Shown piece by piece: positions 1,722 to 35,535 of a stretch of DNA of 64,000 nt. Below the pieces are notes generated by a model, which worked only from the letters and a program-made list of their open reading frames with translations, was not told the DNA's origin and made no database searches. Source of the DNA: Chrysophaeum taylorii (Eukaryota > Sar > Pelagophyceae > Pelagomonadales > Pelagomonadaceae); the NCBI GenBank assembly GCA_029834535.1, contig JAQMWT010000404.1, positions 62,001 through 126,000 on the forward strand, given 5' to 3'. Within the stretch, counting starts at the first letter, position 1, and each line of letters starts with the position of its first letter. The position numbers were made by a program, and so were the translations under genes.

Positions 1722-3992
1722 ATGAAGTTCTTCAAGACGAAACGGAATGCGATCAAGACGACGGTGGATGAAGATTTCTCCAAGGTGGTGGTGCCTAAGT
1801 CGCCCGAGGAGGAGGCGCACCTGCGCACGATATTGCAGGAGAACTACATGTTTGAGGGTCTGGAGGCTTCGCAGCTAACCAAAGTGATCGAGGTGATGAA
1901 GCCCATCGCGTACGCCGAGGGCCAGGACGTGATCGTCGAGGGCGGCGAGGGGAAGATGTTGTACGTGATGACCAAGGGGCACTGCCAAGCGATCGTGGGC
2001 GGCAAGGTCGTCGCCGAGTACGCGGGGACAGGCATCTTTGGGGAGCTCGCGCTCATCTACAACGCGCCGCGCGCCGCGACGGTCCGGGCCACCATGCTCT
2101 CGGAGCTGTACTCGTTGGACGTCAACAGTTTCCGGCACGTGTTGAGCGAGCAGGCGAGCGCGAGGGAGAACGAGTACCGGGAGTGCCTGCTCAAGGTCCC
2201 TCTGCTCAAGACGCTCGACGCTAAGAAGTTGACAACATTGGTCAAGTCGCTCGAGAAGGTCAAGTTCTTGGAGGGGGAGACGATCATCACGCAGGGCGCC
2301 GCGGGCGACGCGTTCTACGTCATCGAGGACGGGGAAGTGACCGTGACGCGGCGCAAGGATGACGCGACGCTCGAGGAGTTGGCCGTGCTCAAGGCGCCCG
2401 ATTACTTTGGGGAGATGGCGTTGCTGGACAATTCGCCGCGACACGCGACGGTGGTCGCGAAGAGCCCCGTCGTCGTGTGCCTCACGTTGTCGCGGGCCAT
2501 GTTTACCAAGCTCCTGGGGCCCTTGAAGTCGCTGTTGCAGGCGCACGCGTGCTTTCACGTCTTGAGGTCGATCGACCTTTTCAAGCCTCTCACCGACGCC
2601 GAGTGCGACTCGCTCGTGAGTGCGATGGAGACCGAAAAGTTCAAGGCGGGCGCGACCATCTTCAAGGAGGGCAAGAAGGGTACCAAGTTTTACGTGATCC
2701 AGACGGGGTCGGCCAAGATCGAGCGCGACGGCCAAGCGTTGGGGGTCCTCGGGACGAACGACTACTTTGGGGAAGCGGCGCTCATCAACCACACCCCGCA
2801 CGTTGCGACCATCGCGGCCGTCGACGACGTCGCGTGCTACACGCTCGACCGCAAGAAGTTTGAGAAACTCCTGATGCACACGGCCGGGACCGCCGAGAAG
2901 TTTGAAAAGGAGATGAAGCGACGCGAGGCGCTCATGGTGGCCCAAACCAGCGGCAGCGGCAGCGGCCCGCCTGGCTCCACCGACAACAACGCGCCGGCGC
3001 TCAAAGACTTGAAGTACGTGCGCATGCTGGGCCAGGGGACCTTCGGCCGCGTCAAGCTCATGGTCCATCACACCAACGGGGACGTCTACACGTTGAAGTG
3101 CATGTCCAAGTCGCAAATCATCGAACAACAGCAAGAAAAGAACGTCATCAACGAGCGCGATCTTCTCTTCGAGTGCTCGTCGACGTTCGTGCTCACGTTG
3201 TTCGCGACGTACCAGTCACCGGACGAATTGATGTTGTTGATGGAGCTCATCCAAGGCGGGGAACTATGGACATACATATACGAAAAGCGCGACTTGTTGC
3301 CGCGGACGCGCCTTGGCGGCTTCACCGACGACACGTCGCGCTTCTACGCGGGCTGCGTCGCGTCGGCCCTCCAATACGTTCACAACAAAGGCGTCGCTTA
3401 CCGCGATTTAAAACCGGAAAATCTCTTGATGGACGCGCAGGGCTTTATCAAGATCATCGACTTTGGCTTCGCCAAAAAAATACCGTACCTCAAGAAGGGG
3501 AAGCAGATGGTTCAGACGTTCACGTTGTGCGGCACGCCAGAGTACATCGCCCCAGAGATCTTGCTCTCCAAGGGCCACGACAAGGCCGTCGACTGCTGGG
3601 CCCTCGGATGTCTTATGTACGAACTTCTCACGGGGGCGACCCCCTTTTGCTACGACGACCAGCAACAAATCTTCCGCGCTATTGTTCAAGTCAACAAGAC
3701 GCTCGTTTTCCCCAAGGGATTTCCCGCCGAGGCCGAGACCCTCGTCCGCGGTATGTTGGTCGCCAACCCCGCCAAGCGCCTCGGCAACATGAAGGATGGC
3801 CTCAACGCTGTCGTCAATTCGGGTTTCTTTTCCACTTTCGACTGGGAGCAGCTCAACTCCAGGGCGTTGAAGCCGCCGTACCACCCGCCGGTCAAGGACA
3901 GCAAGGACGCCTCAAACATCGACCAAATGGAGGAAACTGGCGAAAAAATCCCGAAATTCCGCGGCAATCAAGACGTCTTCAAGAATTTCTAA
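1722..3992 (+). CDS. cGMP-dependent protein kinase (AGC family) with three cyclic-nucleotide-binding domains
   Basis: Serine/threonine kinase activated by cyclic nucleotide, 756 residues, one uninterrupted exon. Three cyclic-nucleotide-binding domains occupy about residues 40-400, with phosphate-binding cassettes FGELALIYNAPRAATV (about 106), FGEMALLDNSPRHATV (about 229) and FGEAALINHTPHVATI (about 349). The kinase domain follows from about 430: glycine loop GQGTFGRV, TLKC lysine, YRDLKPEN catalytic loop (about 559), DFG (about 580) and activation segment TFTLCGTPEYIAPE. It ends with an AGC tail, KIPKFRGNQDVFKNF. In the third cassette the arginine of the usual PRxA motif is histidine, so that site may not bind nucleotide in the usual way (inference). 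Three binding domains is more than the two of animal PKG and recalls protist PKGs, which carry extra domains. All kinase catalytic residues are present. Confidence 0.93.
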   Translation: MKFFKTKRNAIKTTVDEDFSKVVVPKSPEEEAHLRTILQENYMFEGLEASQLTKVIEVMKPIAYAEGQDVIVEGGEGKMLYVMTKGHCQAIVGGKVVAEYAGTGIFGELALIYNAPRAATVRATMLSELYSLDVNSFRHVLSEQASARENEYRECLLKVPLLKTLDAKKLTTLVKSLEKVKFLEGETIITQGAAGDAFYVIEDGEVTVTRRKDDATLEELAVLKAPDYFGEMALLDNSPRHATVVAKSPVVVCLTLSRAMFTKLLGPLKSLLQAHACFHVLRSIDLFKPLTDAECDSLVSAMETEKFKAGATIFKEGKKGTKFYVIQTGSAKIERDGQALGVLGTNDYFGEAALINHTPHVATIAAVDDVACYTLDRKKFEKLLMHTAGTAEKFEKEMKRREALMVAQTSGSGSGPPGSTDNNAPALKDLKYVRMLGQGTFGRVKLMVHHTNGDVYTLKCMSKSQIIEQQQEKNVINERDLLFECSSTFVLTLFATYQSPDELMLLMELIQGGELWTYIYEKRDLLPRTRLGGFTDDTSRFYAGCVASALQYVHNKGVAYRDLKPENLLMDAQGFIKIIDFGFAKKIPYLKKGKQMVQTFTLCGTPEYIAPEILLSKGHDKAVDCWALGCLMYELLTGATPFCYDDQQQIFRAIVQVNKTLVFPKGFPAEAETLVRGMLVANPAKRLGNMKDGLNAVVNSGFFSTFDWEQLNSRALKPPYHPPVKDSKDASNIDQMEETGEKIPKFRGNQDVFKNF

Positions 3993-28638: not shown

Positions 28639-29041
28639 TAACCTAACATCAGACCTCTCCCTAGCATATGGGAGCCAGGCCGGACCGGTAGAAGCCGGTA
28701 CGGAATCACAGAGGAAAATCACGCAGTTGGGGCAGAGGCGAGGGACGAGGACGGGCTTGTTGATGGTGGACCGCCACTGCGCGCGGTCTTGTGCGAGGTC
28801 GTGCAAAAGCGTCGTAGGCCGCGGACGTGTTGGTCCACGAACAATCGACCTGTCCGTCGAGTTTTGCCCAACCGAGCGAACCCCATCCCAGCGCGGACTT
28901 TTTTTCCGTGTGCTAACCGGCCAGCCAGCCCGGAAGGCGAGCAGGCACCGTCTCACTCCGGGACGGCCGGGGCCGCCGCAGGGAGCAAGCAAGCGCGTTA
29001 GGCAGGCGCCGTCCTCCATCGCAACCAACGGTTAGCGATCG
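28639..29041 (-). mobile_element. SINE-like retroposon (second subfamily) inserted at a stop codon
   Basis: 403 bp on the minus strand, from CGATCGCTAACCGTTGG to a TAACCTAAC-type tail. It shares both ends with the 53.1-kb copy, but the middle (for example GTGGACCGCCACTGCGCGCG) is shared only with the 48.0 and 58.8-kb copies. Flanked by CAGGAATCC at 28630-28638 and 29042-29050. The insertion falls inside the stop codon of the neighbouring gene. Confidence 0.9.
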
Positions 29042-30663
29042 CAGGAATCCAAGCCATCCTTATGGTGGTCGATGTCGCACTCGAACTCGCCCTGGAGGTC
29101 GAGGAGGGCGCGGTCGAGGTCGGCGGATATTTTGGACATGGTGCGCATCAATCTTGCCGTCTTGCCGCCGGCGACGGATATTCGTCGGAAGACCGAGGCG
29201 CGCGAGAGGGTATAGTTGGTGGTGGTGGTACCAGGCGCGTGGGGTGCTAGGTTGTTGTCGATGGGGCGGCCGGTGTCGATGTCGATTCCAGCGTCCTCAT
29301 CTCGGTTGACGTCGGGCGAGTTGTAGTCGCCCTCGGCGGCGGCGGCGCCGAGAAAAAAGGCGTTGGTAATGCCGAGGTCGGCGGAAGAGTTTGCGTGGAA
29401 GGGAAAGGCCGTGTTGCAGCGGAGGTTGGGCAGGTAGAGGAAGGCGAGCGAAGCGTGCGCGGCAAAGGCGAGGGCGAGGTCCGAGGCGAGGATAAAAATT
29501 TGGCGTCGGTTGTCGTCGACCGCGAGGCCGACGAGGACCAGGAGAGGCTTGGCGATGAGCCAGAGCGTAAAAATGGCGTTGAATTTGCGGTAGAATCTGA
29601 TTTTTGATCTGTAGTTTCGGGCGGTCGTGCGGGCGGCGTGCCAGAACCAGAGGACGGCGGCCGCGCGGAGCGAGACGAGGACGACGCCGGGGGGCGACTC
29701 GTAGTGGGAGGCTGTCTTGGCGGGGTCGAAGACGTAGAAGCGCCAGAGTTCGAGGGAAAGGGTGGTCCACGTCAGGGCGGTCACGTAGGCGGCGACGCGG
29801 ACGCGGCCGTTGATGCTCAGCTTGCGACGCACGATCGTCCAGCCTTTGGCGAGCAAGACGACGAGAAGGACGAGGAGCAAATCGGCCGCGTGCCACAAAA
29901 AGGTGGCCGTGTTGCGGCACGCCGGGGCACCCTCGCCGTCGGCCGCGAAGGTCGCGTAGTGGACGGCTGCGAAGACGCAGCCGGCGAGCTGGACCCAGAC
30001 CGACCAGCAGAGCATCGCGACCGTGTGGTGGAACTTGCGGCGTCGTCGGAGGCGCGCTCGGAGAAGGGTACAGAGAGCCCCGAGCACCCCGTAGGCCCCC
30101 AGAAAGGTGAGGGTCGTGGGCAGGGCGCCCGTCTCGTCGGCGCTGAACTCGCGGGTCTGGGGATCGTTGCCGTTCGTGAGGTGGAGATCGTAGTCCAGGA
30201 CGAGGGGTCCCTGGCAAAACCCCGAACACTCGGCGTCGCAGTTGGAGAAGGCGATGAAGACCCACACGTTGGTGCTGACGTCGATCTTGACCTTGCCCGA
30301 CGCCGTCGTTTCGCCGTCGGACGTCGAGACGCGGCGCACGAAGCCGCCCTTGGTGCCGAGGTCGAGGCTCCGCGTCGCCTCGCGCCGCTTCTTCGAGCAC
30401 GTTCCGTCGCTCGTGTAGAGGTCAACCCACTTATCGAACCCGTCGTAGTACAACAGCATCTCGGGGGACGCGCCGACAGGAAATGTGACACGGAAGTCGA
30501 GAAGACCGTACTTGCGCGACGTCTCGTGGGCGTCGAGGTTCTTGGGAGTCGGCACGAAGCAGAACCGCTCCACAAACACCCATGGCTCCAGCGTGTCGAG
30601 CGACCCGTCCTTTACCCGCAACCCCCCAGCGAATCCCACCACCACCACCAGCGGCAACAGCAT
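29032..30663 (-). CDS. TMEM145/GPR180-like seven-transmembrane protein with a lumenal ectodomain
   Basis: 543 residues from the ATG at 30663 (MLLPLVVVVGFAGGLRVKDG); the long upstream extension is low-complexity and rejected. A signal peptide is followed by a beta-rich ectodomain of about 200 residues (WVFVERFCF, KYGLLDFRV, then a cysteine pair NCDAECSGFC). Seven hydrophobic segments follow from about residue 200 (TLTFLGAYGVLGALC, MLCWSVWVQLAGCVFAAVHY, LLLVLLVVLLAKGW and others), and a cytoplasmic tail. This is the layout of the GOST/GpcrRhopsn4 family that includes GPR180 and TMEM145, membrane proteins of the secretory pathway. The last three residues (CDR) and the TAA come from the retroposon inserted in the original TGA. 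The start lies about 100 bp downstream of the preceding gene's stop. Confidence 0.82.
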   Translation of the reverse strand: MLLPLVVVVGFAGGLRVKDGSLDTLEPWVFVERFCFVPTPKNLDAHETSRKYGLLDFRVTFPVGASPEMLLYYDGFDKWVDLYTSDGTCSKKRREATRSLDLGTKGGFVRRVSTSDGETTASGKVKIDVSTNVWVFIAFSNCDAECSGFCQGPLVLDYDLHLTNGNDPQTREFSADETGALPTTLTFLGAYGVLGALCTLLRARLRRRRKFHHTVAMLCWSVWVQLAGCVFAAVHYATFAADGEGAPACRNTATFLWHAADLLLVLLVVLLAKGWTIVRRKLSINGRVRVAAYVTALTWTTLSLELWRFYVFDPAKTASHYESPPGVVLVSLRAAAVLWFWHAARTTARNYRSKIRFYRKFNAIFTLWLIAKPLLVLVGLAVDDNRRQIFILASDLALAFAAHASLAFLYLPNLRCNTAFPFHANSSADLGITNAFFLGAAAAEGDYNSPDVNRDEDAGIDIDTGRPIDNNLAPHAPGTTTTNYTLSRASVFRRISVAGGKTARLMRTMSKISADLDRALLDLQGEFECDIDHHKDGLDSCDR

Positions 30664-30763
30664 TGTGGCGTTGTGAACTCTGTGTCCGTTGAGGAGGAGT
30701 CGGGCGCACGAAATGAATGAGGCCGTCATGACGACAGAGACACATTGGTGGTGGTGGTGGTGG
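30664..30763 (-). promoter_or_regulatory. Candidate location of a SECIS element (3' UTR of the SelW fusion gene)
   Basis: A eukaryotic selenoprotein needs a SECIS hairpin in its 3' UTR. The 100 bp after the stop contain one ATGA (minus strand, at 30729-30726) and a partial inverted pair CTCTGT/ACAGAG around it, but I could not fold a canonical SECIS core by eye. The element may extend into the next gene. This entry marks where to look and does not claim the element. Confidence 0.2.
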
Positions 30764-32053
30764 TCAGTTGTTTGGGGCCGCGGCACGGACGGCGTCGAGG
30801 ACTCGGCGCGTGGACTCGGGGGTCTCGCAGCGGTCGTGGCCCATGGTCTTCTTGGAATGCACAAGTTCGCCGTCGACGGTGACCTCGAAGTTGCCCGTGG
30901 GGACTGCGTCGCGGATTTCCGTCACCTTGGCGGCTGGGACCTCGGTCTCGATCGCATCCTTGAGAGCGGTCGAGAAGCGGTCGTACCCTCAGGCGCCGCA
31001 AAACTGGATGTCGACGGCGGGAGACGACGACGACGGAGCGTAGATTTCCTCGAGGTCTTTGGCCGCGTCGGCGAGGGTTGGTCTCGGTTTTTCGAGCTCG
31101 CGCCTCGCGAGGGGGGGGAGGGCGAAGGCGGCGACGTGTGCCTGGGGGTCGTAGAAGTCGAGGGCGTGTTCGGTGGCGAAGGCGGCAGCGCGGTTTTCGT
31201 CGTCGAGAGCCCGGGGATCGTCGCCGAGCGTGGCGCACGCGAGGTTCCACTGGCCGCCCGGGTAGACCGCCGAAAAGCACGAGTAGGGCATGACCACGGG
31301 AAAGCCCGCGGCCTTGAGGCCGTGGTACACCGTGCGGAAGACGCGCGGCAGGTACCAGTAGCTGCCGGCCTGGGCGACGACGGCGCCGCGCGGCCGGAGA
31401 CATCGCCGGAGGGCCTCGTAAAAGGCGGGAGCGTAGAGCTGGACCCCCGGGCCGATCGGGTCCGAAGCGTCGACAACGACGAGGTCGTACTGGGAATCGG
31501 GGCTCGCGCGCACGAATTCGCACCCGTCCGCGAAGACGACGTCGAGGCGAGCGTCGGCGTCGAGACTCGCGGGCCAGAGGGTGGGCATGAGGTCGCGAGC
31601 CGCGTCGACGACGCCCCTGTCGATGTCGACGAGTGTCACGTGTTCTACCTCGGGGTGCCGAAGGATCTCGCGCGCGACGCCGCCGTCGCCGCCGCCGACG
31701 ATCAATACCCTCAGCTCGCGTCGGGGCGCGCCGCGCCGCAGGAGGGGCACGTGGGCGAGGAACTCGTGGTACCCCGCCTCGTCGCGCTCGGCGCACTGGA
31801 GCGCGCCGTCGAGGATGAGCGCGCGGCCGAGCGACACCGTGTCCACGACGGTGATGTGCTGGAACTCGCTTCGCACGTCGCGGACGACGCCCTTGATCTC
31901 GGCCGACCACACGATGCCTCGCAGCCACGAGTCGCTCACGAACCGTCCGTCCCGCGACACCCCGCACCGTGGCACGCTGATCTCGGGGGCCACGAGCGCC
32001 GACGTGATGGTGCACCACCACGACAGTAAATGAAGGATCCCCATCCTCCTCAT
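30764..32053 (-). CDS. Spermidine synthase fused to a SelW-type selenoprotein domain (in-frame UGA)
   Basis: 429 codons if the TGA at 30989-30991 is read as selenocysteine. The N-terminus MRRMGILHLLSWWCTITSALVAP is a signal ending in a plastid-type motif. The spermidine synthase domain (about 40-310) has the aminopropyltransferase signatures GYHEFLAHVPLL, VLIVGGGDGGVAREILRH, VTLVDID, and DASDPIGPG with the catalytic aspartate. After a linker, VDIQFCGA is followed by TGA and GYDRFSTALKDAIE, then GNFEVTVDGELVHSKK and a final helix up to TGA at 30764-30766. FCGA-U-GY, the FEV..DGELVHSKK strand and the domain length match SelW (CxxU redox motif). Termination at the first TGA would leave a complete synthase. 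The start at 32053 overlaps the upstream gene's stop by four bases (ATGA); the next ATG at 32044 is equally possible. Confidence 0.87.
30989..30991 (-). other. In-frame TGA read as selenocysteine
   Basis: The codon lies exactly where SelW proteins carry selenocysteine in CxxU: TTT TGC GGC GCC TGA GGG TAC. Conserved SelW sequence continues in the same frame for another 74 codons. Other genes in the window use TGA as a stop, so this is not a code change. Confidence 0.85.
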
Positions 32054-33957
32054 GTCGCGTCCTGGAACGGAACGCACGCCAGATCGTCGTCCGACCCGGC
32101 CCCTGCACCTGCCCCTGCCCCTGCGCCTGGGGGGGCGGAGTCAGCAGGAGCCCCAGTCGCCCAGCACCACCGCCACAGGGCGAGCGCTGCAGAGACGACG
32201 AGGAGTGGCCGCCATCCCCGAGGGGAAAAGAGAGCGTCGAGCCTCGGGAGGAGAGAAAGGTGAAGGAGGTCGGAGCGGAGAAACCTGGCGAGCTTGGCCT
32301 CGAGGTCGTCGGGGGCCCCCAGAACGAGCTTGCGGAGGCGGGGAGGGTCCCGGAGGATGGCGCGCGCGAGGCGGCGGATGGCGCGGGGAAATGCGCGCTC
32401 GACGCGGCGGGTCCAGCGGTAATTCAAGGGGAGCGAGAGAAGCGCCGCGTCGGCCGCTGCCCGCGGCGAGTAAGTCGACGACGAGACCCGGTGGTACTCC
32501 TGGAGCGTCTGGCGCGCGTACTTGGCCCAGAGCGCGGCGATCGAAAAGGTGGTCTCGCCGAGGACGGCGAGGCACCGTCTGAGAGCGCCGACCGTGCGCG
32601 CGAAGAAGATGACCTCCGACGGTACTTTGGAGAAGATCGGGAGGCTCGCGGGGTCGTGTGAGAGGGCGTCCTCGATACGACGGAAGATGGCCTCGGGGAT
32701 CTCGCAGTCTTGGGCGGTCGAGTCGAAGAACTGGTACAAGAGCGCTCGCCGGGTCTCGAGGTCGGCCGCCGTCGCGGCGAACTCGTAACGGTCGGCGAGG
32801 CCGGTTCCGAGCGGGTCGTCGAGGGCCGCGGCGACTAAATCAGGGCTGCGCGCATTCAAGAGCAGCACGAGCCTCGCGAGGTGGGCGCGTTGCTCGAGGT
32901 CGAGCTCGCAGCACTGGCCCCAGTCGATGAGCGCGAGAGCGTCGCGATCGTCGAGGACCAAAACGTTGCCCGGGTGCGCGTCCGCGTGGAAGAAGCCGTC
33001 GAGAAACAAGGAGGCCCCGATCGCGTCGATCACGGCAACGAGTCGGCGCTTGACGACGAGCTCGCGGCGGCAGTGCGCATCGAACGAGGCGAGCGTCGTC
33101 CCCTCGAGAAACTGTGCCGTCAACGACGACGAGCCGCACAGCTCGACGACGGGCTGCGGGACGACGACCGCCCCGCCAAACCCCCGATTTTCGAAGATCG
33201 CGACGGCGCGCCGCATGTTCCGGAGCTCGAGGGTGAGGTCGAGCTCGCAGGGGAAATTGTTGTCGAACTCGTCGAGGATCACTTCGATCGTCTGGCGCAT
33301 TCCGAGCCCCAACAACGCGTCCACTTGCAGACACAACGATCTATGGTTCTTCAGGTCTTGGCACATGTTTCGTCGCGCGTCCTCGAACACCACCTTGATG
33401 GCGACGTCGGCGAAGGCGCCTTCGCCGGTGCGCGCCTGCCGCGGTCGCGCGAGCCGACCGCGGTGCACCTGCCCGACCGACGCCGCCGCGAGCGGCTCTT
33501 TCGAGACGTTCTCCAGAAGCTCGTCGAGGGTGGCCGAGCCCACGTCGCCCGTCAAAACCCGCTCTATCTCTTCCCAGGGCCGCGACCGCGCCTTGTCAAA
33601 CGCGAAGCGCAGCTCGCGCTCCCAAGCGCGCGGCAGCAAGCTCCCCTGGGAAACCGCGTACTGCGCGGCCTTGAGGTAGACGCCGCCGAGCTCGTCGTAC
33701 ATTCGCGCGACCAGCCGACTCGTCTCCTCGTGCTTGGTATCGAGCAGCGCGTCGCGCTTTCGCCGGTACTCCTCCTCGTCGGCCGCCTCGGATCGCACCC
33801 GCCCGAGTTCCTGGAGTGCGCGGTAGTACCGCACGAGAATCGGCACCGCGTGGCTCAACACCTTGTAGCTCCGCGTCATGTCCGAGTAGCTCGAATTCAT
33901 CGACGCGCGGACGCTCGCACTCAATGCCTCGATGTCCCACGTTGCTTCTCTTCCCAT
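32050..33957 (-). CDS. ABC1/ADCK (UbiB-family) atypical kinase
   Basis: 635 residues from the ATG at 33957 (MGREATWDIEALSAS); the open frame extends far upstream only because it is antisense to the transporter gene. In UbiB-family proteins this fold supports ubiquinone or prenylquinone metabolism in mitochondria or plastids. Visible motifs: the KxGQ region as YLKAAQYAVSQGSLLP (the glycine is alanine here), the alanine-rich loop EPLAAASVGQVHRGRL, VAIKVVF lysine, catalytic HADAHPGNVLV and metal-binding LIDWGQ. A C-terminal hydrophobic segment (WRPLLVVSAALALWRWCWA) is followed by a GAGAGAG linker and a short acidic tail. No clear targeting peptide is seen. It is first in the minus-strand gene run and divergent from the CRT-like gene. 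Confidence 0.88.
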   Translation of the reverse strand: MGREATWDIEALSASVRASMNSSYSDMTRSYKVLSHAVPILVRYYRALQELGRVRSEAADEEEYRRKRDALLDTKHEETSRLVARMYDELGGVYLKAAQYAVSQGSLLPRAWERELRFAFDKARSRPWEEIERVLTGDVGSATLDELLENVSKEPLAAASVGQVHRGRLARPRQARTGEGAFADVAIKVVFEDARRNMCQDLKNHRSLCLQVDALLGLGMRQTIEVILDEFDNNFPCELDLTLELRNMRRAVAIFENRGFGGAVVVPQPVVELCGSSSLTAQFLEGTTLASFDAHCRRELVVKRRLVAVIDAIGASLFLDGFFHADAHPGNVLVLDDRDALALIDWGQCCELDLEQRAHLARLVLLLNARSPDLVAAALDDPLGTGLADRYEFAATAADLETRRALLYQFFDSTAQDCEIPEAIFRRIEDALSHDPASLPIFSKVPSEVIFFARTVGALRRCLAVLGETTFSIAALWAKYARQTLQEYHRVSSSTYSPRAAADAALLSLPLNYRWTRRVERAFPRAIRRLARAILRDPPRLRKLVLGAPDDLEAKLARFLRSDLLHLSLLPRLDALFSPRGWRPLLVVSAALALWRWCWATGAPADSAPPGAGAGAGAGAGSDDDLACVPFQDAT

Positions 33958-34071
33958 CTCTGGCACACACACACACACACTGTGAGGAGTTTCGTCACGG
34001 CATGGAGACCGTCGTCGTGTCACCGCGTCATTAAATTGACGCGGGGTAAACAGAAAAACAAAGATCTGCGG
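33958..34071. promoter_or_regulatory. Divergent upstream region with a CA microsatellite
   Basis: 114 bp between the ATGs of the ABC1 kinase (minus) and the CRT-like transporter (plus), with a (CA)n run at about 33962-33979. A bidirectional promoter is inferred from the spacing. Confidence 0.5.
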
Positions 34072-35476
34072 ATGGTCGGGGCGGGTCGGTGGTGGCGCGA
34101 GGGTGTGGCGATCGCGACGGTCGTCTGTCTTGGCGGGCTGAACTCGATATTCTCCAAGATCCGCGCCGACCAGCTCCAGGAGTTTGACGGTCTTGCCTGC
34201 GGCGTGATGAACGCCATCGGCTACGTGGTCTTCTATTTTGCGTATGTGGCGTACGCGTACCGCACCGGGGCCATCACCCCCGAGATGATGCGGTTCATGT
34301 ACGTCGACGCTGGAGACGAGACAGCGCGGAAATCTTCGTGGAGAATATGGCGCGGCGCTCACCGGTACATCGTCGCGGGCGGCCTCGCCGACGAGGCGGG
34401 CCAGGTGTGCGGCTTTGTCGCGCAGCCCTACGTCTCTATTATCGCGAGCGCCCTTCTGTCCCAGACATCGAGCGCCTGGAATATGTGCTGGTCGGCAAGC
34501 CTTCTTGGGGCGCGCTATGTCGCGCAAGAGTTCGCGGGCGTCGGCATAGCTTTGGCCGGAGCGTCGCTCGAGGTCCTCGATATCGAGTCCGGAAACGACC
34601 GCGGCACGCGCTTCGACATGGCCCTCTTGCTTCTGGCCTCGGCGGCTGCCCCTTCGCTTTCGTTTGTATTGAAAGAAAAGTGCTTTCGATTGTGGGAGGG
34701 GGCACCCCGGCCGCTCCTCGGAGACCGAAAAGACCTCGACGTCTGGGTCGTCGCGTCCGCCGCTGCCGTCTGGTCCTTGGCGTGGGCCCCCGCCGTCACG
34801 CTCGCGACCGCCGTGATTCAGAGGCCCCACAACATGTCGGTTTCTCGCTACTTTGTCGAAACGGCCCGGTGCTTTGGCAACGACGTCGACTACGCGTCCA
34901 AGTTTATCGACGACGACGACGACGACGGGGACGCCCGCAGAGCGTGCCGCCAAGCCTGGCAGTATTGGTTGCTTTACATGGTCAACAACATCTGCTACAA
35001 CATCAGCATCTACCGTGTCGTCCGCCTCACGAGTGCCCTCACGGCCTTCGTATGCCTCAAAATAGTAGTTCCGGTCGCCGTCGTCCTCGCCGTCGCCGTC
35101 GAATGGCCCTACGTCGGCCGAGGCACCATGACCGCCACCCAGGGCATCAGCCTCGTTGTGATCCTCGTCGGCGTCGCCATCTTCCGCCACGGCTCCTACG
35201 TCAACGAGCGGCGCTTCGGAGGGCGGCGCCGACGAGAGGGGCGAGACGACGAAAATGGCGGCAGTGACTGGGTCTGCTGCTGGCCGCTCGCCGACTACAT
35301 CCTCGGCTCGGCGCGCAAACCTCTGACCCCGCCGCCGCTGCCTCCTCCTCCTGCGGCCGGGGTTCACCCGCAGCCGCGTCTTCACTTCATGGACATCGCG
35401 CGTCAGACTAGTAGTACCACTTCTCCAGCCAACCGCAGCAGCGCGGCGCGCCTGCTGGACTCTGACACCCCCGCAC

Positions 35477-35507
<31 letters not shown>

Positions 35508-35535
35508 ATTGAGAGAGCAACCTGTTGTTTCATAG
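34072..35535 (+). CDS. CRT-like (chloroquine-resistance-transporter-like) drug/metabolite transporter
   Basis: 487 residues from the ATG at 34072. About ten hydrophobic segments arranged as in the drug/metabolite transporter superfamily: VAIATVVCLGGLNSIFSKIR, NAIGYVVFYFAYVAYAY, YVSIIASALLSQTSSAWNMC, GIALAGASLEVLD, LLASAAAPSLSFVLKEK, VASAAAVWSLAWAPAVT, YMVNNICYNISIYRVVR, TAFVCLKIVVPVAVVLAVA and ISLVVILVGVAIF. NSIFSKIR and the LTSALTAFVCLKI region resemble the CRT-like group known from apicomplexan PfCRT, plant CLTs and protists, which move thiols, peptides or amino acids across vacuolar or plastid membranes. An aspartate run (DDDDDDGD) lies in a loop, and the acidic C-terminus ends in another aspartate run. 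The longer frame upstream of 34072 is antisense to the ABC1 gene. Confidence 0.72.

Follow-up and report, generated by a model that had tools for sequence, protein, structure and literature searches.

Selenoprotein W (SELENOW; PF10262, CXXU_selWTH) is free-standing, whereas at the locus described here a SelW domain follows an aminopropyltransferase at its C-terminal end, with about eight linker residues between the two. The CxxU motif, the domain length, GNFEVT, HSK and the match to the solved structure 2npb are common to both. Similarly, the spermidine synthases (PF01564, PRK00811) have the same whole domain and invariant residues as the fusion, but the closest of them end after LEEIYS or an equivalent, whereas the fusion carries a selenoprotein domain. 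Brown-algal synthases with a C-terminal HAD-like domain (P0006 and P0008, 51–55% identity) are extended at the same end; their extension is of HAD type (PF12710), in contrast to the SelW of the fusion.

As reported in the accessible part of a survey of 137 algae, the selenoprotein fusions in this group are three: SELENOM-pVHL in Aureococcus, and SELENOM-ShKT and GST-MSRA in Emiliania (PMC7539508). Like the spermidine synthase–SelW (SpdSyn-SelW) fusion, these join a selenoprotein domain to another domain, with different partners. That part of the survey names no SELENOW fusion, and its main text mentions neither polyamines nor spermidine. Other selenoprotein fusions are described in the accessible part of a marine metagenome survey (PMC2398784). 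In our literature searches, spermidine synthase and selenoprotein W were co-mentioned solely in the enzyme-name lists of a review, and spermidine synthase with both selenocysteine (Sec) and UGA gave no fusion among the papers listed, as judged by titles. As far as searched, the SpdSyn-SelW fusion has no described precedent, although one could be buried, for example in supplements. The first-pass annotation of this DNA had likewise known of no fusion between SelW and polyamine synthesis, and none was found in the literature or proteins searched.

The window, that is, the whole 64,000-nt stretch of Chrysophaeum taylorii DNA under analysis, is part of a 70.8 Mb assembly of 697 contigs (G000), which the genome-wide searches covered. 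On its minus strand, a single 429-codon frame runs from position 32053 to 30764, with one internal UGA at codon 355 and a terminal UGA stop (30764–30766). Codons 1–346 (31016–32053) contain the spermidine synthase domain with an N-terminal extension, and codons 347–429 (30767–31015) contain the SelW (Rdx/CXXU) domain, 74 of them after the UGA. The internal UGA (30989–30991) occupies the second redox position of CxxU (FCGAUG), as placed by the reading frame and by a TGA at the same column in the genome's own SelW. The synthase part, FCGA-UGA-GYDRF and the 74 further codons are all in frame; the first-pass annotation had described this frame, UGA and codon count correctly. The synthase has a GC3 of 0.884, the codons beyond the UGA one of 0.851, and overall GC is 0.563 over the 103 nt after the fusion, the start codon of the next gene included.

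The surrounding genes are densely packed on the same strand. Upstream lies an ABC1-kinase frame (32050–35520, minus strand; E 3.4e-37), whose TGA overlaps the synthase ATG by 4 nt (ATGA, 32050–32053); such a stop/start overlap is unusual for a eukaryote. A long plus-strand frame with a CRT-like transporter domain (32881–35532; E 2.2e-15) overlaps this kinase frame in the opposite direction, and the matched domains of the two frames do not overlap each other. Downstream, a TMEM145/GPR180-like gene (29035–30663, minus strand; PF10192, E 4.6e-39) has its start codon at 30663–30661, about 100 nt past the fusion stop, so a selenocysteine insertion (SECIS) element without coding overlap must fit within about 100 nt. 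Such density, including the 4-nt overlap and the proximity of the next gene, would suit two genes, with SelW adjacent to the synthase but expressed from its own transcript, its start being unseen or supplied by an exon further upstream. However, the synthase runs into the SelW part without a stop or a break in frame at the junction, and Met is absent from residue 255 up to the UGA, which leaves the SelW part without its own start codon; we consider a pair of abutting genes very unlikely. Being fused and lacking its own start, this part is termed a SelW domain rather than a SelW protein.

Based on profile searches with the fusion protein (P0001, with Cys in place of Sec and one extra last residue), both halves of the frame belong to known families. 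Pfam matched Spermine_synth at residues 93–274 (E 5.3e-44) and the tetramerisation domain Spermine_synt_N (E 4.6e-8), both over cut-off. Among NCBIfam models, the polyamine aminopropyltransferase PRK00811 scored 266.6 bits, over its cut-off of 260, and speE (TIGR00417) scored 228.1 bits, under its own cut-off of 249.55. The best solved synthase relative is PDB 1iy9 (E 3.7e-52). Moreover, in a 12-row alignment of this protein and 11 relatives, the invariant residues of the synthases are kept, such as GGGDGG and D195xSDPxGPG. Collectively, these matches and the homologues predict that codons 1–346 are a whole aminopropyltransferase, most simply a spermidine synthase.

For the C-terminal part, Pfam Rdx (PF10262) matched residues 347–408 (E 2.7e-11; 44 bits against a cut-off of 22.6), CXXU_selWTH scored 48.3 bits, over its cut-off of 34.2, and the solved SelW 2npb matched residues 346–426 (E 3e-8), the match spanning the UGA. 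CGAUGY, GNFEVT, HSK and GHDR are all kept. The earlier proposal that the tail is SelW from CxxU to the C-terminus agrees with all three matches. The domain fits the family profile and has a CxxU with UGA, but it is not a free-standing protein of about 90 residues. As judged by the E-values, chance is excluded as the source of the domain matches on either side.

An AlphaFold2 (AF2) model was built from the 12 synthase rows with no SelW rows. Confidence in ten-residue blocks is 84–98 over residues 51–330, except for 71 at 261–270; it falls below 50 at residues 341–358 and is 43–68 in the blocks of the SelW part. The SelW part is folded as helix-strand-strand-strand-helix, which is the expected SelW order after its first strand. 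The model does not show the relative placement of the synthase and SelW domains. The N-terminal extension ends in SALVAP, which we take to resemble a heterokont plastid signal; the first-pass annotation had named the plastid as a possible location on this ground. The hydrophobicity of this N-terminus is unremarkable, with a Kyte-Doolittle maximum of 1.49 over 11 residues; maxima are 1.54–3.31 in P0002–P0006, P0008 and P0017, and 1.40–1.54 in P0012 and P0019, which are synthases without such an extension.

The same genome encodes a tRNA-Sec (60 bits, over cut-off), SepSecS and SelD. Besides the fusion, there are 10 recognisable UGA selenoprotein genes, named here from family and from the motif around the UGA: SelW, SelT, SelH, two GPx, three Sep15/SelM, MsrA and a deiodinase-like gene. 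A UGA lies inside the matched domain in 4/6 Rdx loci (the fusion counted), 2/3 GPx, 3/3 Sep15/SelM, 2/7 MsrA (one kept), 1/1 deiodinase-like and 0/3 AhpC-TSA_2. The MsrA-like locus L033 was kept out of the Sec set, its match containing both TGA and TAG in stops that look intron-like by eye. Reassignment of UGA to sense was not adopted, since SelT, Sep15 and the fusion itself all end at a UGA. The free-standing SelW lies on contig C389 (L007:3595–4070, gene at 3595–3867); its C-terminal codons and the start of its 3′ UTR are tandemly repeated just downstream, which gives two CATGAC motifs, at offsets 26 and 157.

A SECIS-like element follows the fusion at 30678–30740 on the minus strand. Its core comprises CATGAC (30730–30725), a GGC/GCC stem (30724–30722 and 30705–30703) and CGAC (30702–30699), and a possible lower stem, CTCTGT (30739–30734) with ACAGAG (30683–30678), was read by eye only. 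Counted from the first base of the stop codon, CATGAC is at offset 36 and is the sole RTGA in the 700 nt after the stop. The same CATGAC occurs in nine of the ten other Sec genes of the genome (3′ sequences from L012, L013, L016, L022, L023, L025, L026, L027, L032 and L041): it was present in all nine first collected, at offsets 26, 28, 32, 33, 38, 42, 47, 48 and 71, and the deiodinase-like gene, added after this pattern was noted, shows AATGAC at offset 58, together with UGAA and a stem of 5 bp. By comparison, in 15 Sec-less genes the 160 nt that follow the first in-frame stop downstream of the match contain no CATGAC, a count that ignores introns and may include stops that are not real ones. 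A background set of 256,718 bases from elsewhere in this genome, with both strands and some overlapping loci included, contains 30 copies of CATGAC, of which 6 have a stem of 3 bp or more that ends in NGA. The chance of CATGAC within the observed offset range is 0.0055, and 0.0011 with the stem of at least 3 bp and NGA.

The structural features of the element are less distinct. Under a strict rule, in which a contiguous stem directly follows AUGAC, the stem is at least 3 bp in seven of the ten Sec genes, 2 bp in SelT and GPx2, 0 or 1 bp in SelW, and 3 bp in the fusion. When the ten cores are folded by themselves, the 22-nt core of the fusion has the weakest energy, −2.0 kcal/mol (z 0.16); z is similar in GPx1 (0.11) and SelM1 (0.21). 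Furthermore, none of ten 97-nt segments stands out from its shuffles (z −1.78 to 1.08; fusion 0.13). In a MAFFT alignment the SECIS cores were out of register, as seen for SelH.

According to the accessible part of a published description, SECIS elements follow NTGA-AA/CC-GA, with 10–13 and 15–39 nt between the parts (PMC2375036). We ran this rule with spacings loosened to 8–15 and 10–39 nt on ten genes, the deiodinase-like one left out. The CATGAC of SelW, GPx2, SelM1, Sep15, SelM2 and MsrA passed, the apical motif of these six being CC in five and AA in one; SelT passed via another ATGA only. Even with loosened spacings, no AA/CC was found at the canonical place in the fusion, SelH or GPx1, and with the published spacings, the CATGAC of SelW and Sep15 alone passed. 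Rfam SECIS_1 gave no match at gathering score in the window, none up to E 10 in 30400–31010, and none genome-wide (133 of 648 first-look candidates scored). The model also misses the ten Sec genes of this genome, so its silence at the fusion says little. The genome has a SECIS style of its own, with a CATGAC (once AATGAC) core 26–71 nt from the stop, which Rfam SECIS_1 misses. Much of the genome's own SECIS set departs from the textbook form; for the fusion, the core motif and its place are strong but the structure is not. Where the first-pass annotation had expected a SECIS in 30560–30763, the SECIS-like CATGAC...CGAC does lie inside that interval, but Rfam SECIS_1 finds none there.

To assess the codons beyond the UGA, we compared them with the free-standing SelW of the same genome on C389. 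Of 70 residues, 46 are identical, with dN 0.284, dS 0.610 and a ratio of 0.466, against 0.864 and 2.077 in the two wrong frames; the stretch before the UGA, eight codons, is too short for a codon comparison. The part after the UGA is conserved, and the estimated constraint relative to the genome's own SelW is only moderate at this dN/dS. By eye, loss of the UGA through splicing seems unlikely, since conserved SelW residues cross the UGA without a gap. The fusion is a single copy in one assembly, as would be expected of an assembly or sequencing artefact that joins the synthase to SelW. However, the junction lies within an open frame, GC3 is even on its two sides, and CxxU is intact across the UGA; moreover, with just 62% identity to the other SelW of the genome, the fused domain is no misplaced copy of that gene. 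Such an artefact is scarcely credible.

A SelW tree was computed from 21 rows, 19 of 41 matches plus the two of this genome, with P0130 and P0142, two of the 21 relatives retrieved, dropped as near-duplicates of P0122 and P0141. The fused domain groups with P0124 (93/68) and adjoins the genome's own SelW (82/90), but the rows are short and it is in no starred set, so the tree was used for its short end branch alone: 0.16 for the fused domain, against 0.49 for both the own SelW and P0124. Seven of the 19 SelW relatives have W at the Sec position (CGGWGY), which probably reflects gene calling under code 4, with the UGA translated as W. The contig of P0124 (2271 nt) is equal in length to none of the contigs of the 120 listed synthase homologues, a faint hint that its SelW is free-standing.

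Other fusions were sought from both sides. PF10262 was absent from the precomputed domains of the best 120 listed of 367 synthase homologues, and no SelW was found in the 14 homologue sequences inspected, of which P0042 and P0044 are truncated within the synthase domain and uninformative. The three closest synthases (72, 69 and 62% identity) have their C-termini at LEEIYSG, LAEIYS and DIYSDPNEN, whereas the fusion continues with APSSSSPAVDIQF; these relatives are gene models, in which a fusion could go unseen because of an intron or the end of a contig. With the SelW part as query, 75 candidates among proteins 0.55 to 1.75 times its length gave none at E 0.01, a weak search because gene models usually stop at UGA. 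An IMG/VR scan returned 13 pattern stretches and no relative. Within the data searched, the fusion is known from this genome alone. The first-pass annotation had proposed a search for it across stramenopile synthases; the closest synthases in the protein collection lack SelW, which gives no support to a fusion shared across stramenopiles.

Among the 120 listed of 367 homologues, the nearest named synthases come from Discosporangium, Choristocarpus, Scytosiphon, Hapterophycus and Ectocarpus, which are brown algae, with Chrysoparadoxa lower. A HAD-like domain (PF12710) is present in the synthases P0006, P0008, P0009, P0010 and P0011, four of the five with brown-algal names; in P0006 and P0008 it is at the C-terminal end, a different extension in the same place as SelW. 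Myxococcota-named relatives (P0022 and P0037, 52–53% identity) rank below the algal ones, and the algal synthase gene may have a bacterial origin. Two further aminopropyltransferase genes occur in the assembly, at C366:133097–133903 (L002) and C533:46332–47252 (L004, L005), and neither locus has an Rdx match.

These comparisons also bear on a decayed 3′ end, in which the synthase would stop at the UGA and the SelW-like remainder would be a captured copy that is no longer translated. The occurrence in one genome only, with relatives at 62–72% ending without SelW, the weak upper stem of the SECIS and the dN/dS of 0.466 between the fused and own SelW all fit such a fragment. However, its 74 codons are still open with CGAUGY, GNFEVT, HSK and GHDR kept, the end branch is short (0.16), GC3 remains 0.851, and CATGAC is in place at offset 36. 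We therefore regard a dead fragment as improbable.

Collectively, the gene very probably encodes a Sec-containing SpdSyn-SelW fusion, a two-domain selenoprotein, as the first-pass annotation had proposed. This reading is preferred because of the open frame, the homology on both sides, the conservation after the UGA, the Sec machinery genes, the other selenoproteins of the genome and the CATGAC core that the element shares with them. From these features we infer that Sec is inserted at UGA-355 and that one transcript covers the synthase and SelW parts. Translation would yield the whole spermidine synthase first. Under the direction of the AUGAC...CGAC SECIS, which lies about 260 nt further on within a short 3′ UTR, the Sec machinery could then insert Sec at UGA-355, and the ribosome would run on into the SelW domain to give 429 residues; termination at the UGA would instead give a plain 354-residue synthase. 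Either product would be a whole synthase, and since read-through and termination both leave it intact, a failed Sec insertion would be cheap. Through the short linker, each long subunit would carry a CxxU thioredoxin-like domain, in a synthase family with a tetramerisation domain.

As to function, a tethered redox role and delivery of SelW to the compartment of the synthase seem likeliest, and no result separates them. Redox coupling of the SelW domain to synthase activity is possible but on balance doubtful. Somewhat less likely still is a selenium-gated bifunctional enzyme, in which a fraction of the subunits would gain a CxxU domain when selenium is available and only plain synthase would be made when it is not; the tethered domain might then sense or repair the synthase, or bring SelW into its compartment.

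The function of SelW is poorly defined. A physical fusion would hint directly at a partner, in this case one from polyamine and S-adenosylmethionine (SAM) metabolism, and such hints are rare. In the accessible part of a Plasmodium study, thioredoxin-family proteins trapped SAM synthetase, ornithine aminotransferase and SAH hydrolase, and its authors proposed redox control of polyamine synthesis; spermidine synthase is not named among the targets there (PMC2660430). If true, the selenium-gated reading would link polyamine synthesis to selenium supply by one codon, and the arrangement would offer a testable selenium switch.
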